From positions 26,176-90,175 of the forward strand of contig JAWPGT010000085.1 of NCBI GenBank assembly GCA_034638255.1: a stretch of DNA of 64,000 bases. The letters run 5' to 3'. The stretch is from Coprinus comatus (lineage: Eukaryota > Basidiomycota > Agaricomycetes > Agaricales > Agaricaceae). The stretch's first letter is position 1; the number at the start of each line of letters is the position of its first letter. Shown in pieces: positions 6,036-20,777 of the stretch. A model generated the notes under the pieces. It ran no database searches. It was not told where the DNA came from and saw only the letters and a program-made list of their open reading frames with translations. Position numbers and translations under genes: made by a program.

Positions 6036-6988
6036 ACTTACTTCCAGAAAGATCGGACTTTGGAGGATTACCTGGACACCTTCAAAGCACTCATTTCAGC
6101 ATCTGGGTACACCGACTGGAAGGTCACTGTTGTCAAGTTTCGTCGAGGTCTTTGCACCAACTTGGCTGACTCCATTGCCACTATGACCCTGGGCCGACCC
6201 TCCAACTCCTATGCCAATGGCTGGTATTGCGCAGCCACCTGCTTCGAAGCTTCCCGACTTGCCAATGTTGCATTCAAGGCAAATCATTGCCCTGTGCCAC
6301 CAGCTCCCAAACCTGTTTTTCACTCCTTCCCAAAACCCCCGCCTCATCCAACTCCCCTGATTCCCCTACCAACATTCGCCCATGTAATGCTGACACCCGG
6401 GAACCTGACTCTGATGGACATTGACATGTCCAAACTGCATAACCTGACCCCCTCCACCTGCTACTGATGTAAGCAGCCTGGACACATCAAGGCAGATTGC
6501 CCCCAATGCTTTGATGTCCAGCTTATGACCTTGGAAGAGAAGGATGAGTTGCTGATGAACCTGTTGGCAGAGAAAGATGTTGCCAACGTTGGAAGGCAGT
6601 TGGAAGGGTCAGTGGAAACAGATACACAGGATTTTCGGTAACTCAATCGGTGGAGGCCATGCCCCAATTGTCTAGCATTAATAGGTTTGCTGTACTACCT
6701 GTAGAAGAAATAAACGAGACTACTATTTCCCCACCTACACCCAAACCTATAGCCGTGCCCAAACCCCACCGACCTCACTGGGAACATCACTACCTCCTGA
6801 CCCAGTATGTCATTTCGTCCACCGCCCCCACCAACACCTTGAAACTACTGATCGACCTTGAAACCACTGACACTGGAGTCTGATTTTCATCGGAAGCACT
6901 TGTGGACTCTGGTGCCATGGGTATCTTCATAGATTGGGACTTTGCTCGTCAACATAAGCTCACCACTCACCATCTATCACACCCGATC

Positions 6989-7531
6989 TGTTACGGTTTC
7001 ATATTTATCACGACTAATCATTAGAACTAATGATGGACGATAGTGTACTTTCTCTTACTCGTTTCACATAGCCTTGGACTACTGTTTCACATAGCCTTGG
7101 ACTACTGTTTCGTATAGCCTCGGACTAGTACTTTCTACGGACTTCCACTTGTCGTTTCACTCACTGTTTCAGCTGTAGATAGTTTCACTCTCCTGTCTCA
7201 CATGTATCAAGCATAGCCTACAACCTGTACTCGTAGTTGTATAAATACATGGACAGCGACAGAGATTAAGCTTCAGCTTAATACTCTAAGTTGCTTCTAC
7301 TCTATCTCGTTCATCGCCCTTAACTTGATACCTAGAACCGGAGTCAGCTCTAACTCTTGCACGAACGGCTTACTAGTAAGGAACACCTGTGATCTACAGT
7401 CCGAGTACTGTGGAGGTCGTCCCCTGAAAATAGTCTCAGTCTGAGTAGACGTTCTCCTCCTACGAGCATCTTGAAGAGATCCATCGTAGCATCGTCTATA
7501 CCGAAACGGAGGTATAGGCAAGATTATAACA
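6989..7531 (+). repeat. Solo LTR of the gypsy-2 family inside gypsy-1 pol
   Basis: 543 bp with TGTTA...TAACA ends, flanked by a perfect 5-bp duplication cgatc (6984-6988 and 7532-7536). Its sequence matches the gypsy-2 LTR at 20243-20777 in the opposite orientation. Removing it and one cgatc makes the gypsy-1 protease region continuous. The U3 part contains three copies of a 23-bp unit (7061-7129). The gypsy-2 LTRs have about two. Confidence 0.95.
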
Positions 7532-11094: not shown

Positions 11095-11459
11095 TGTAAG
11101 GGGACCTTTTTCACCAACCCTTACACCAACACACCAACTACCGACCGATCCTCCGATGTTCCGACTTCCATCGGAACACCTCCCAACTTCACGCTTTCAT
11201 GACTTGCCCCCTCACATGACTCATCCCCCATTGTTCCCATTGTCCATGTTATGACATGCCTCTGGACAATAGCTGGCGTCTCTGTTTGCATAGTAGTATA
11301 TATTGTGTGTAGCCTGTGTGAGTGAATCCCCAACTCTCTCTCTTTGGATTCCTCGCTAGGTATGTTGTATCTGTTCTGTAATATGTTTCCAATCAAATAT
11401 AACTTTGGATTCCTTGCTAGTTGTCAGGCCGTTCGTTGCCAACATGAGTTGCCCTTATA
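11095..11459 (+). repeat. Gypsy-1 3' LTR
   Basis: 365 bp. The last 146 bp align without gaps to window positions 1-146. A TATA-like tatatatt is at 11297-11304 and the self-priming start region at 11332-11341 (one mismatch to the primer site). The LTR is followed by gaaac and then by gypsy-2 LTR sequence. Confidence 0.92.
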
Positions 11460-11991
11460 GAAACCAGAGTATTAAGCTGAAGCTTAACCTCTGTCACTGT
11501 CCATGTATTTATACAACTATGAGTACAGGTTGTAGGCTGTGCATGATACATATGAGACAGGAAGGTGAAACTATCTACTGCTGAAACAATAAGTGAAACA
11601 CAACAAGTGGAAGCACATAGATGTAAGCGCAGGAACGTAGAGCACAACGGGACACATAGATTAATGAAGGAACGAAGTTGATTGATTAAGAAATGAGTGA
11701 GATACACTGCAGACAATGGTATGAGACTAGAAGGTCACCAAGTGTCTGCAGGATGCTTCTACAAGCTGTGACATCACACAGTAACTCCACATGATCAGAA
11801 AAGCAATCACAAGCTCCAAGTCCATCAACTCCTGACATTGGGACTGCCTGGAGCAATCCTGACAATAGAAACTACTAGTCCAAGGCTATACAAAACATCA
11901 GTCCAAGGCTATGTGAAACAAGTAAGAGAAAGTACACTATTGTCCATCATTAGTTCTAATGATTAGTTGTGATAAATATGAAACCATAACA
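11460..11991 (-). repeat. Gypsy-2 3' LTR, interrupted and truncated
   Basis: 11466-11621 and 11865-11991 match 20509-20777 in the same orientation, once the solo LTR at 11622-11864 is removed. The outer half of the LTR (matching 20243-20508) is absent at the junction with gypsy-1 and is expected on the far side of gypsy-1, off the window. The preceding purine tract on the minus strand identifies it as the 3' LTR. Confidence 0.88.
11622..11864 (-). repeat. Copia-family solo LTR lacking the intron-like insert
   Basis: 243 bp, TG...CA, in reverse orientation. It matches the copia LTR at 824-1118 except for substitutions and the absence of exactly 52 bp. A perfect 5-bp duplication, ataga, flanks it (11617-11621 and 11865-11869). 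It arose by LTR-LTR recombination after an older insertion into the gypsy-2 LTR. Confidence 0.95.
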
Positions 11992-12007: not shown

Positions 12008-12355
12008 GAACTAGTCCATAGTTCATAAATAATAGTTCAAAGTAATAGTCCAGATGAAAATAAATAAAAAAGGAAAGAGTACTCAAAGAAAATTAAGTCC
12101 ACGTTTAGACATGTCTGTCATAGCAAGAGGGTCAGGTTTGGTAGGTGGGCAGCAGAGTGGGTGGTCTGGCAGGAAGAGGGTGGCATATTGCTGAAGTGGG
12201 AATTTCCCAAAGAGGAGGGGTGTGTGAAATGCAGTGTAGGAACTGAGAGGGGTGACAGATTTCATCTACTCAGCAGTTGTCTTGTTCATCTCAATGGGTG
12301 ACCCTGTTAGGTGGCAATCTGGGGTTGACCCACAGTCTGACATCTCCTTGATAAT

Positions 12356-12572
12356 TGTTGAACTATTATTAGTTCTTCCATGACATTCTCTAATGGCATT
12401 AAGCTAGATGAACATGTGACTCAATATGTTCTCGCATGGACCATTGCATTAACGTATATAAACCTTGTAGTAGTTGCATTATATACTTAAGTTCTTTCTA
12501 CCTCAACAACCACCCTCAGTAAGTCTAAGTTGTACCTACTCTAGCATACTATGCTTTGCACTTGTTTTAACA
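12356..12572 (+). repeat. Solo LTR A of a third LTR family (plus orientation)
   Basis: 217 bp starting TGTTGAAC and ending TTTTAACA, with a TATA-like tatataaa inside. Its left flank is ataat and its right flank aagag, so the two do not match each other. They match, crosswise, the flanks of LTR B. It is about 90 percent similar to B by eye, in the opposite orientation. Confidence 0.92.
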
Positions 12573-12577
12573 AAGAG

Positions 12578-12694
12578 AATGTTTCAGATTCAGCAAAAGA
12601 ACTATTTGGAGAATACCAGAAGAACCATTGCCTTTCACTTAAAAGGGCTCCTCCAAAGAAGACACTCTCTACCCCCCCTCGCAGATATAAATGA
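12578..12694 (+). pseudogene. Displaced C-terminus of gypsy-2 pol
   Basis: Read directly after the minus-strand chromodomain (…WEPEE at 14711), this stretch continues NVSDSAKELFGEYQKNH, the usual closing helix of a chromodomain. It ends at TGA 12692-12694. That stop overlaps the ATG (12691-12693) of the following ORF in the form ATGA. The segment was separated from the rest of pol by the LTR B insertion and then turned over by the inversion. Confidence 0.85.
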
Positions 12695-14491
12695 CCCAAC
12701 AACAAGACTCCACCTTAGGCCCCAACTTCTCTCCTCTCAAATACTCACCCTCCTCTCATTCATCTTCCACACCAAGCCTAAGCTCCATCACCAATGATAC
12801 ATTCCTCTCACCAGCAACCACACCCCCTCAAACTGCATCTACAACAGGAGCTATCAATACTCCTCTTGCTCTCAATCCAGCTTTTGATCCTAACCAACTT
12901 TGACTGGATGATCCAGAAGTTCAAATTCTTCTTGATACTGCTATTGAAGATATTCCTCCTCACATTCTCAATCACCTTCACATTGACACTCTTATTGATC
13001 GTGGTACTTACCCACCTGGAACAACTCTGATTGAAGAACCCCAACTTGCTGCAGCTATTGTCCTGGCAAGGTTCAATACCATTCCACCTACCATGGATCA
13101 AACAGAGACACCCCTTGCTCACCCCATACCCCATATCGCAACCCCAGACACAGTCTCTCCCCTCATTGAATGACCAACCACTGCACCCTCTAGGTCAGAT
13201 GGTAACTCGCCTAAACCAGTATTTGCAACAGAAATTCACCCGAGAACCATACCTGCCACCCCCTCCATTCATAATTCGAGTACATTGGAATGGGGAAATC
13301 ACTATAACTGGAGAAAGGGAGTTGGACATCCAAACATGCTCTCCTACCACAAGGATGGAGAGGCACCACGAGAACTACCAGCTGGATCCAATGCCAAGTT
13401 TCTCACCCTTCCATATTTTGAGAAACTCTATGAACTCTGGAATGTCCTCACCCACATTGCATTGACGGCATGAGCAGAACGATACACTCCTACCTCTGCA
13501 CCCAGTTGCTTGGCACAATTATACTCCATTTGACAACTCGGGGAGACTGTTACTGAGTACCTCACCTGTGCATCAGAGATCTCAGAAGCCTCTACCTCCA
13601 CAACCAACCCTCCATGACCAAATGACCCAACGGGATTGGATGTTCCTAGAAATGTTGGATGTGAGAACCCCAGCCTCCCAGCTAGCCAGGTTCCTCCCAC
13701 CAATCTCTTTACTGACATCCCCAATACCTATCCAATCACCCCAGACCATCCATTCGCCAACCTTGGTTCCAGATATCCATATTGATACACCACGCCTGCT
13801 CTTTACCATCCCCCAAACTGACAAGAGGCCCGTGTCTTACAAAATATCTCCAACCCACCATTCGAATCATCAAGAGCAGTTCACTATGCATCGTCATTAA
13901 GGGAACTGGCTGATAAGATCATTGGCTCTGAGGATTTTGAGCAATGGTTTGGAAGGTTCCCAGTTTACAAGTTGAAAGAGGATATCATGAAGAAAGACAT
14001 TCCCCTCCTCATCTACAACCAGTTCACTGACAAAGAAAAGAAGTGTTATGATTACAGTTGTATTGTCTGTGGATTAGTTGGACACATTGGATCATCATGC
14101 CCTGACTACCAATGCCAATTCTGCAATACCATGGGACACTATTCCTGGACTTGCAAGAATTGACCCACATCCCCAGTCATTGTTTCTCAACTCAATACTC
14201 CCAAGCCCCTGGAACCAGCCACTCCCATTGCACTCACGAGAGCACAAGATCAAATCACTCCCAAAATCTTTGGTACTCAGAAGGCTCATGGTTTACAATT
14301 TCATTATGTCAGACACACTTCCTCCCTCCTCACTCCTCTCCCTTGATGTCTTGATGAGAACTGAAACCCTGAATTCACCACCACCTACTTGTTGACTACT
14401 CATCCTATGTCAGATCGAATTCTGGCTTGTCGAACCCTTGCTCCTCTCACAAACAAGTGTCCCTTTCCTGCCAACTTGGAGAACAATGGAA
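12691..14491 (+). pseudogene. Gypsy-2 ORF3: extra protein after pol with two CCHC zinc knuckles
   Basis: The frame starts at ATG 12691, overlapping the pol stop. It encodes a Ser/Thr/Pro-rich N-terminus (MTQQQDSTLGPNFSPLKY), an acidic/hydrophobic middle, and near its end two adjacent knuckles: CIVCGLVGHIGSSC and CQFCNTMGHYSWTC (about 14067-14157). In-frame TGA codons interrupt it at several points (for example after PNQL, PLIE and CKN), nearly all where CGA arginine would fit. The frame appears to continue across LTR A onto the minus strand below 12355. Gypsy-2 already has a gag with its own knuckle at about 18385-18430, so this is an additional protein. The function is unknown. Nucleic-acid binding is likely from the knuckles. 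It is not a recognisable envelope protein. Confidence 0.75.
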
Positions 14492-14496
14492 ATTAT

Positions 14497-14710
14497 TGTT
14501 AAACAAGAGTTAGCATGTATGCTAAGGTAGGTATGACTTAGACTTACTGAGGGTGGTTGTTGAGGTAGAAAGAACTTAAGTATATAATGCAACTACTACA
14601 AGGTTTATATACATTAATGCAATGGTCCGTGTAAGAACATATTGAGTCACATATTCATCTAGCTTAATGCCATTAGAGAATGTCATGGAAGAACTAATAA
14701 TAGTTCAACA
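14497..14710 (-). repeat. Solo LTR B of the third LTR family (minus orientation)
   Basis: 214 bp, the inverted counterpart of LTR A. Left flank attat, right flank ctctt. It interrupts gypsy-2 pol directly after the chromodomain codons for WEPEE. Confidence 0.92.
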
Positions 14711-17700
14711 CTCTTCTGGTTCCCAAGTATTCTCTGAGTCAGAAAATCCCTTCCATTTGATCAGATACTTCATCTTGTTTCTACTCCTTTTGTGATTGAT
14801 GATTGCTTTGACTTCCCAGTGTTCTTCTCCATCTATCAAATCAGGGATGGTTTCAGAGGAAGACTTATTTGGGTTGATCTTGTTTTGAACTGTGGGTTTC
14901 AACAGAGCCACATGAAACATATTGTAGATCTTCCATGATGTTGGTAGAAGAAGTTGATAAGTCAGAGGTCCTTTATGTTTTAAGATTTTGAAGGGACCTT
15001 GATGTTTTAACTTGATCTTCAATGATTGGTGTTGGATGGGAAGGTTCTTCGCATTTAGATAAACTTCATCCCCTTCATTATAGGTTGGATAATGAGGATG
15101 TTTGACATGAGAAGATATCACTTTAGCTGCAGATTGATAGGCTAGCAGTGCTTCATGTCTGAAACAATCAAATTTTCAAACATGATCATCAACTGATGGT
15201 GCACCAGATTCTTCCATGATGTTGGGGAAGGATGGTGGATTTGTTCCAGTCATAATTTCTAGTGGTGATCATTTGTTGGCGGCATGGGGATGGGAGTTGT
15301 AACTGAATTCGAGAAGTGGAAGTGCATTGATCCAGTCATTTGGTTGGTTGTTGCAGTAGATTGAGAGATATGTTTCAATCTCTTGATTAGCTCATTCTGT
15401 TGCACCATCTGTTTGGGGATGGTATGCCATAGAAGGTTTCCAGTCAATCTGGAGCATTTTAAAGAACCTTTGGGCAGCTTTAGAAGCAAAATGAGGATTG
15501 CGATCTGAGACAATAGTGTTGGGGGTACCAAACCGTTTGTAGACATTGTTGATCAGAAGTTTAGAGATATTGGCAAAAGTGCAGGTTTTTGATGTTGGAC
15601 AGAGTATTATCCCCTTCGATAATCCGCAATCTATCACAGATAATATAAAATCAAATTTTCCGCAAGGAGGGAGATCGGTGATTAAGTCCATAGCAATATC
15701 ACCAAAAACGCACATAGATTTGGATGGAGGAAGTGGTTTGAATGGAGGTTTTGCAGGATTCCAATCAATCTTGAATTGTTGGCATTGTGGACAGGCTTTG
15801 ACATAGTTGGTAATGAAGTTGTGCATTCCAGGCCATTTCACTATTAACTGAATTTGTCTTAACATTTCATCTATTCCAGGGTGTCCTGCGGAATGGTGAT
15901 CATGGTGCTGTGCTAGAAGCTGTTGTTTCTCCTTCAGAGTGGGTTCTTGAGCAATCAAGGCAGGTTCAGTTGAAGTGGTGTTTAAGAATAGCTTGTTTGG
16001 TAAAACCACAATGTCCACATTTTCCTTGGCAGAGTCAAAGTTATGATCTGGTTGTCTAGAGAGTGCATCTGCAGCAGGAATTTCTTTTCCTGGTTTGTGT
16101 TTTATCACAAAGTTGTATTTCTGCAGTTCAGCCCAAGTGCAAGCTTGATGACATGACAGCTTCTGCAAATCTTGCCAAAAATGGAGATTGTTGTGATCAC
16201 TGTGCACAGTTACTATATGCGGTGATCCCAGTAGATAGTGGCACCAGTCATCAAAAGCTTGTTTGATCGCAAGGAGTTCTTTGTCTGGAGTGGGATAGTT
16301 GCGTTCCACAGGTCCAAGGGATTTAGAACGGAATGCACAAGGACGAGTAACTCCGTTTTCATCAGTTTGACATAGAACACCACCCATTGCAAAGTCAGAA
16401 GCATCTGTTTCAACATGGAAAGGTTTGTGAGGATTGGGAGTGAGAAGGATAGATCTGTTTACAAACATGTCTTTAACAGTGTTGAAAGCTTCTTCTGCTT
16501 CTGGGGTCCATTTAAATGCTACCAACTTGTGTAGAAGGTCATTTAGAGGATGGGTGATATTGGTGTAGTTCCTGATGAATTTTTGGTAGAAGTTTGCAAA
16601 TCCTAAGAACTTTCTAACTTCGCATTGTGATGTTGGTGTAGGCCATTCTGCAATTCCAGTGAGTTTGTCTTCTGACATGGTAATACTGTTCTGGCTTATC
16701 GTCATTCCTAGGAATTCTATGGAGGTTTTCTCAAATTCACATTTCTCAGTCTTGAGATAAAGATCGTTTTCTTGGACTCTTTTTAGGACTTCAAGAGTCA
16801 TCTTGTTAAGATCTTGCTTGTTATCAGAGAAAATGAGAATGTCATTCATATAGACAATAACTGCTGTACAACCAGGTTTGTCAATGAGATCTTGGAAGAT
16901 ATGATCCATCATTGCCTGGAACGTTGCAGGAGAATTTGTCATTCCAAAGAACATAACAGTAGGTTCAAAAAGACCAAATGGAGTTTTAAATGCTCCTTTC
17001 CATTGGTCTCCATCAAAGATGTGAACATTGTTATATCCAAGACAAACGTCCATTTTGGTGAAGTATTTAGCTCCATGGAGGTGATCCATAATTGAGCTGA
17101 CATTGGGAATGGGATAGGTGATTTTCACAGTGTGGGAATTGAGGTAGTGATAATCTTGACATGGTCTAAGAGACTTTCCATCTTTCTTGTTGACAAAAAA
17201 GAATGGTGATGCCATAGGAGATTTAGATGGTCGGATATATCCTTTGGCTAGGTTTTTGTCAAGAAAGGTCTTTAATTCATCCATTTCAGCCGGTGCAAGG
17301 CAATATGGTTTGTAAGACTTTGGAGTGAAGGTTTCTTTTAGATCAATGCAATGATCACAAGGTTGTGATGGAGGAAATTGTTCTGAGGCCTTCTTGTTGA
17401 AGACAGGAAGATATTTCCATAATGTTCTAGGAACTATTTCCTTTGGATCAGATGATGTGGCTTTTGCATACTTTTGAGATATAAGTTGGGATGCAGAAGT
17501 CTTGGCATTGATTTGTATGAGGCAGTTAGCCAATCCAGTGTTAAGGGTATCAGGGAGCAATTGTGCAGCAATGTGGAGGTTTTTAGGAACATCAATTGGG
17601 TCTTCACTGTAATAGGTGACTTCGTTGATTGTGATGGAATTTTCAAGTTGGGAGCAGGAGATGGTTCTAGAAGATGGTGAATGCCATCGGAATGTCTTGG

Positions 17701-18208
17701 CAGTCCAGTCAATGTCGGGATTGTACTGTTCCAAAAAGGAAAACCCTAGAATGGCAGGGTGTTTTTTAATTCCAATAACATAGGCATCTGTCTTGATGTT
17801 TCGGCTATCAATGATACATTCCACAACTACTTTTTCAGTGATTGTTCCACTGATGTTTTCTGTTCCATTGACATTCGTAACAGTGATTGGGGGTTCCACA
17901 GGGATTCATTGGAGGTTAAGGGAGTATGTGGTTTTCTCAGAAACAAAGTTTCCTTGAGCTCCTGAATCAATCAGGGCATTGAGGGTGGTGATCTGGTGGG
18001 AGTGGTGATTTTGAAGATAGATGGGTAGATAAATAGATTTTTTGTTGTGAGACAGAATGAGAGGAATAATGGAAATGTTCACTGGAGGCAAATTGTTAAT
18101 GTCTGATTCATCATCTGTAAAGGAGAGATTGTCCGAGTCTTGAGAATCTTCATGAATCACCAAAAGGATAGCAGAGGCTGGATGGGTTCGACTTGTCACC
18201 TTAAGCAA
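14711..18208 (-). pseudogene. Gypsy-2 pol (PR-RT-RH-IN-chromodomain)
   Basis: Reading the minus strand: protease (ALIDSGAQGNFV near 17975); a TGA near 17903; then a long frame 17899-15392 with RT (KTPFGLFEPTVMFFGMTNSP), RNase H (ETDASDFAMGG), the integrase finger and core with VSDRNPHF; a TGA where the glutamate of HPQTDGATE is followed by a lost arginine; further stops; and the chromodomain (EEHWEVKAIINHKRSRNK, then KYLIKWKGFSDSENTWEPEE) at the end. The RT active site is YMND, so the first catalytic aspartate is lost. The C-terminal tail is displaced to 12578-12694. Chromodomains of this class direct integration toward heterochromatin. Confidence 0.92.
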
Positions 18209-20230: not shown

Positions 20231-20518
20231 AGCTTAATACAATGTTATAGTTCTTGCCTATACCTCCATTTTGGTATAGACAATGCTACAATGGACCTCT
20301 TCAAGGTACTCGTAGGAGGAGAACATCTACTCTTACTGAGACTACTTTCAGGGGATGACCTCCACAGTACTCAGACTGTAGATCACAGGTGTTCCTTACT
20401 AGTAAGCTGTTTGTGCAGGAGTTAGAGCTGACTCCAAGTTCTAGGGTTATCAAGCAGAGGGTGAGGAGCAAGATAGAGAGGAAGCAACCTAGAAGGTGTC
20501 AACTTAGAGTATTAAGCT
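20231..20518 (-). promoter_or_regulatory. Gypsy-2 self-priming pair: primer site 20231-20240 and transcript start region 20509-20518
   Basis: On the minus strand, gtattaagct lies two bases after the 5' LTR. It is the exact complement of agcttaatac inside the LTR, which sits about 27 bases after a TATA box (tataaatac, 20553-20545). The length (10) and the 2-base spacing are the same as in gypsy-1. This is the Tf1/sushi type of self-priming. Confidence 0.72.
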
Positions 20519-20777
20519 GAAGCTTAATCTCTGTTGCTGTCCGTGTATTTATACAACTATGAGTACAGGTTGTAGGCTGTGCGTGATACATGTGAGACAG
20601 GAAGGTGAAACTATCTACTGCTGAAACAATAGGTGAAATGACAAGTGGAAGCACATAGAAACTACTAGTCTGAGGCTATACAAAACACTAGTCCAAGGCT
20701 ATGTAAAATAAGAGAAAGTACACTATTGTCCATCATTAGTTCTAATGATTAGTCATGATAAATATGAAACCATAACA
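20243..20777 (-). repeat. Gypsy-2 5' LTR
   Basis: 535 bp with inverted ends TGTTATGGTT...AACTATAACA when read on the minus strand. It matches the solo LTR 6989-7531 over its whole length. The first host bases beyond it are gttct (20778-20782). Confidence 0.93.

Follow-up and report, generated by a model that had tools for sequence, protein, structure and literature searches.

In the Galileo inversion 2z3 of Drosophila, opposed copies of one transposable element flank the inverted segment, their target duplications are exchanged, the copies are chimaeric, and uninverted chromosomes carry single target copies (PMC2775673; this and the other comparisons below are limited to the accessible portions of the papers cited). 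Here we describe a comparable arrangement in the fungus Coprinus comatus, within a stretch of 64,000 nucleotides (contig JAWPGT010000085.1, positions 26,176 to 90,175; hereafter the window, in whose numbering all positions are given unless another sequence is named). Two solo long terminal repeats (LTRs) of a copia-type family, A and B, lie in opposite orientation inside gypsy-2, an old Ty3/gypsy element that has domains for reverse transcriptase, RNase H and integrase as well as a chromodomain and that occupies the minus strand between about 20777 and 11466. With 2z3 the locus shares opposed copies of one element at the ends of the segment, target duplications exchanged as reverse complements, and single targets in the uninverted state. 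Unlike 2z3, the partners are solo LTRs, the inversion spans 1.9 kb inside another element, and chimaerism of the copies is unproven (PMC2775673).

In human and chimpanzee, inversions at 49 loci have been ascribed to recombination between retrotransposon copies (RRMI; PMC2603318). The likeness lies in inversion through recombining retrotransposon copies, but those copies were L1 and Alu, with no LTRs, and the inversions were detected by comparing two species. At maize centromere 10, copies of LTR retrotransposons recombine and leave mismatched duplications as a trace (PMC4806543); however, the outcomes there are chimaeric elements and centromere-scale inversions, not a solo-LTR inversion with crossed duplications. 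Yeast solo LTRs of the Ty1/delta type also arise from LTR-LTR recombination, and Ty1 is said to mediate inversions among other rearrangements, but these were selected gross rearrangements and the accessible text describes no inversion with crossed duplications (PMC3102749). To judge from its title, a report on insertion sequences concerns segments inverted by ectopic recombination between inverted repeats, which in that case are terminal inverted repeats and not LTRs (PMC3004938). In the literature searched we found no report of a segment inverted between two solo LTRs whose target duplications are crossed, and the accessible part of PMC10085805 holds nothing on such an event. The initial annotation had called solo LTRs acting as inversion sites rarely documented; this does not amount to a new kind of event, as the signature itself is known from Galileo (PMC2775673). 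The mechanism is already known from Galileo and RRMI, and the present locus is a further case that does not change mechanistic knowledge. Its parts are as follows.

12351..12355, plus strand: ataat, the left of the two target-site copies made by the insertion at A; its partner is attat at 14492-14496
12356..12572, plus strand: solo LTR A, copia-type family, 217 bp, TG...CA
12573..12577, plus strand: aagag, reverse complement of ctctt (14711-14715), probably brought here by the inversion
12573..14496, now plus strand, with the rest of gypsy-2 on the minus strand: inverted gypsy-2 segment, 1,924 bp, running the other way wherever a junction of another copy was scorable
14492..14496, plus strand: attat, reverse complement of ataat, probably brought here by the inversion
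14497..14710, minus strand: solo LTR B, 214 bp, of the same copia-type family as A and opposed to it
14711..14715, plus strand: ctctt, copy of the site B target duplication left in place; a single CTCTT stands at the sampled empty sites

The segment between the two LTRs comprises the end of the pol frame (the C-terminus of the chromodomain) together with the greater part of what lies downstream of pol. Homologous, opposed copies stand at both of its ends: A and B are about 93% identical, differing at 16 alignment columns, and their arms form an inverted repeat of 194 nt, 95% complementary and 1,967 nt apart. The coordinates and crossed flanks that the initial annotation assigned to A and B proved exact to the base. 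Read in LTR orientation, A is ataat-LTR-aagag and B is aagag-LTR-ataat, a perfect reciprocal pair showing the exchanged target site duplications by which an inversion through recombination of transposable elements is recognized. Base composition gives a chance of 1.2e-6 that the ten crossed bases match, and random 5-mers taken from the window give 1.5e-6.

The LTR family of A and B has 184 5' ends (88 + 96) with at most three mismatches to a 35-base pattern, and its full-length members mostly measure about 6 kb from LTR to LTR. One of them, L041, carries GAG-pre-integrase and integrase domains and also matches copia-type gag, at a score under the curated cut-off; in L057 a reverse-transcriptase motif was recognized by eye only, in the raw DNA. 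A and B show what is expected of Ty1/copia-type solo LTRs, that is TG...CA ends, no internal region and full-length relatives with copia-type domains, and their 5-bp duplications become apparent only once an exchange is allowed for. We surveyed the family in 60 of 103 planned stretches, starting from 151 LTR positions among the matches listed, and obtained 90 entries (the L057 entry at 149117 is an artefact of end extension). Twelve solo LTRs were complete: eight have perfect 5-bp duplications, A and B have crossed ones, and the flanks of two (L037 and L048) are unmatched, with no partner among them. The mismatch at A and at B is therefore not a rule of the family. One of the eight, L053, has a less simple history because the same five bases also flank a neighbouring 5' LTR, and L078, which has a matched duplication and starts with TA, was left out of the twelve. 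A and B were the sole reciprocal pair among the solo-type LTR entries compared (25 entries, 12 complete). No second reciprocal crossed pair was found among the 90 entries, a result that applies to these entries and not to the whole genome, several close opposed pairs (e.g. C69, C75, C90) lying outside the stretches examined.

Among full-length copies we examined 18 LTR pairs, each contained in one contig, and ten of these have matching duplications. The LTRs belong to two subfamilies in three copies (L049, L057 and L073), none of which has matched duplications; the ten matches all fall among the other 15. Mixed LTRs with unmatched duplications are as expected of exchange between copies and may be read as its traces. 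For LTRs with only a partial alignment to A (e.g. L070) the ends had to be extrapolated, so some of the mismatches in full-length copies may be misplaced ends.

The uninverted state was looked for in other gypsy-2 copies by three separate searches of the genome, one each with the segment, the pol-side sequence and the left flank. Forty candidates were scored in each search, so that the counts are lower bounds. An adjacent pol match accompanied the segment in 34 of the 40 other segment matches and an adjacent flank match in 27 of the 40; the remainder, which were truncated, interrupted or had their adjacent match outside those scored, were not counted, and two C26 matches that are pieces of one copy were counted once. 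At the B junction the segment is opposite to its orientation in the window in 34 of 34 scorable copies, with matches that overlap by 5 bp, the size of the duplication, and at the A junction the same holds for 27 of 27. Both junctions are uninverted in 24 copies. The window's orientation was absent from all scored copies (34 B and 27 A junctions), and gypsy-2 copies arranged as in the window and lacking A and B, which the initial annotation had named as the observation that would speak against an inversion, did not turn up among them. Its expectation that uninverted copies would read through both junctions was borne out, as empty target sites occur at both places. We read 18 loci for each site, which come from 16 distinct copies in the case of A and from 17 in that of B. 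The empty B site holds one CTCTT in 18 of 18 loci, and the empty A site holds ATAGT, with ATAAT in none of the 18 (in L008 the site is two bases off in the printed register and is still ATAGT). The two ataat copies of the window, 2.1 kb apart on opposite strands, thus carry a variant unseen in the sampled copies. One target duplication followed by an inversion predicts exactly such a common variant, which argues that flank and segment come from a single gypsy-2 copy. In this case it is paralogous copies, and not the orthologous locus, that provide the uninverted state with single targets. In L004, a natural uninverted copy, the pol frame crosses the B site (...NTWEPEENVSDSAKELFGEYQK...) and an open reading frame (ORF) of 402 amino acids spans the A site. 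The reading frames that had been restored across B (pol) and A (the ORF) by re-inverting the segment on paper are thus found continuous in a real copy, with no re-inversion needed.

These observations are very probably explained by the separate insertion of A and B, their reduction to solo LTRs, and LTR-LTR recombination that flipped the segment. A Ty3/gypsy element already present would have received, in separate events, two copia-type elements of the same family in opposite orientation and 1.9 kb apart, each insertion making a 5-bp target duplication. In each copia element, recombination of one LTR with the other would then have left only a solo LTR. Forming inverted repeats of about 93% identity, these two would have paired and recombined, by crossover or by template switching with the same outcome, and this would have inverted the intervening 1,924 bp and exchanged the inner copies of the target duplications. 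The opposed LTRs, the crossed duplications, the empty sites and the uninverted order in other copies are observed directly; the order of events, the solo state of both LTRs at the time of inversion and the pathway of recombination are parts that we infer. Homology between the LTRs offers a natural substrate, which makes this the simplest history, and crossover and template switching at a replication fork are not distinguishable here.

Two features inside the LTRs could be mild signs of a local exchange, although they were noticed after the fact. Columns 1-57 and 100-177 show no difference between A and B, and their run of 78 columns is the longest among 152 pairs with at least 14 differing columns (the next is 67). 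At position 47 both also carry a base that is present in none of 26 related LTRs. We further tested for chimaerism by summing distances to the nearest of the 26 related LTRs before and after swapping the halves of A and B at every column; the best swap point falls between about columns 99 and 177, with a gain of two steps, and the exchange point could not be placed.

Several points weigh against the explanation by LTR recombination. The copies used for comparison are paralogous and not the same locus, and all the data come from a single assembly. The statistics of the long run and the private base were picked after the data had been seen, on pairs that are not independent, and some private base is shared in 9 of 378 pairs, A/B included. 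Ranked by nearness to A, or to B, the other member of the pair comes only 19th or 20th among 27; the two are thus not especially similar overall, and the homology would have been short and imperfect. Finally, swapping halves gains only two steps, an improvement that 109 of 325 control pairs match.

The main rival is an assembly artefact, in which the real segment has the usual orientation and matched duplications and the assembler flipped it between the similar inverted LTRs. Such a flip would yield identical crossed flanks, and further copies with unmatched duplications are present in the same assembly. When maize centromere 10 was reassembled, five solo LTRs in the older reference, and five elements there whose duplications did not match, turned out to be assembly faults (PMC4806543), so that caution on this point is real. 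The initial annotation, which took the inversion as proven, was right about the signature and too strong in the word, an assembly flip retaining a small probability. We nevertheless consider the artefact unlikely. With 16 differing columns and no identical run longer than 78 columns, A and B should be separable by ordinary reads of well over 80 bases. The locus lies inside a 90-kb contig and the window contains no N. The assembly comprises 35.7 Mb in 134 contigs, and full-length repeat copies keep both LTRs in one contig; this contiguity and the copies with both LTRs (18 pairs examined, ten with matching duplications) suggest that long reads were used.

A different view of the same recombination would make A and B a recurrent switch, the segment having been inverted repeatedly or being polymorphic between strains or between the nuclei of the dikaryon. 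Repeated exchange would keep stretches of the LTRs alike, as in the shared private base and the longest identical run, yet we regard this as improbable. Improbable as well is a variant in which two breaks at or in the LTRs were joined without homology, or a fork switched template between the inverted LTRs, in place of a crossover. Template switching gives the same product, in agreement with an exchange point that could not be placed, but it is itself a variant of the explanation by LTR homology; non-homologous joining must leave both LTRs whole from TG to CA and the four flanks intact, which needs a coincidence. That no inversion occurred, and that independent solo LTRs with decayed duplications match crosswise by chance, has practically no standing: unmatched flanks without a partner do occur among the 12 complete solo LTRs, in L037 and L048, but a chance crossing has a probability of about 1e-6, the segment is reversed relative to the window at every scorable junction of other copies, and the empty sites contradict it as well.

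The preferred history, recombination between the two solo LTRs, makes the locus a compact worked example in which four junctions, two empty sites, an unseen target variant and 24 paralogous copies agree. It is unusually well controlled because those 24 copies have the other order at both junctions. If the inversion is real, LTRs as short as about 215 bp, and only about 93% identical, have acted as sites of inversion, and crossed target duplications could be searched for in one genome without a second strain. For the rearrangement of genomes by mobile DNA, it would be an unusually clear example of a known route.

The host element gypsy-2 was delimited by the following features.

11466..11991, minus strand: gypsy-2 3' LTR without its last few bases, split by a solo LTR of a third family (ends placed by eye)
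14705..15175, minus strand: gypsy-2 pol, integrase C-terminus (SH3_Tf2-1) and chromodomain truncated by LTR B (profile positions 1-37 of 53)
15392..17905, minus strand: gypsy-2 pol, reverse transcriptase, RNase H and integrase (Pfam RVT_1, RT_RNaseH and Integrase_H2C2; rve below cut-off)
20498..20777, minus strand: gypsy-2 5' LTR (left end judged by eye, using the terminal CA)

With reverse transcriptase, RNase H, integrase, an SH3-like domain and a C-terminal chromodomain, gypsy-2 belongs to the chromodomain-bearing Ty3/gypsy class, the rve match in the window lying below the curated cut-off. The last few bases of the pol frame at 14705..15175 fall within LTR B, and the chromodomain of the uninverted copy L004 matches positions 1-52 of the 53 in the profile. 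The 5' and 3' LTRs of gypsy-2 differ by 14 mismatches in 251 aligned bases, taken in two pieces, plus 9 gap columns. The 3' LTR ends without its final bases beside the neighbouring gypsy element (11457-11466), so that no matching target duplication of gypsy-2 could be read by eye. Inside it, the third-family solo LTR (11622-11864, 243 bp) has a perfect 5-bp duplication, ataga (11617-11869). A stretch resembling the LTR and leader of gypsy-2 also lies in opposite orientation at 6985-7523, within the left-hand gypsy element.

Downstream of pol, gypsy-2 copies contain ORFs (12573-14496 in the window; 1255-3300 in L004). The last of these, the 402-amino-acid ORF of L004, shows two CCHC-like clusters by eye and a Pfam zinc-knuckle match below the cut-off (E 0.018); a large protein search, which reaches only relatives sharing short exact words, gave it no scoring relative at E 1e-3. 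In another gypsy-2 copy (G000 C50:137951-139847), an LTR end of the family of A and B abuts the same segment about 54 bp from the LTR A site, which may hint at a preference of copia elements for old gypsy elements. The window also contains a DnaJ/zuotin gene that, in keeping with an Agaricaceae-like host, is closest to those of Macrolepiota, Leucocoprinus, Leucoagaricus and Agaricus (53 to 57% identity).
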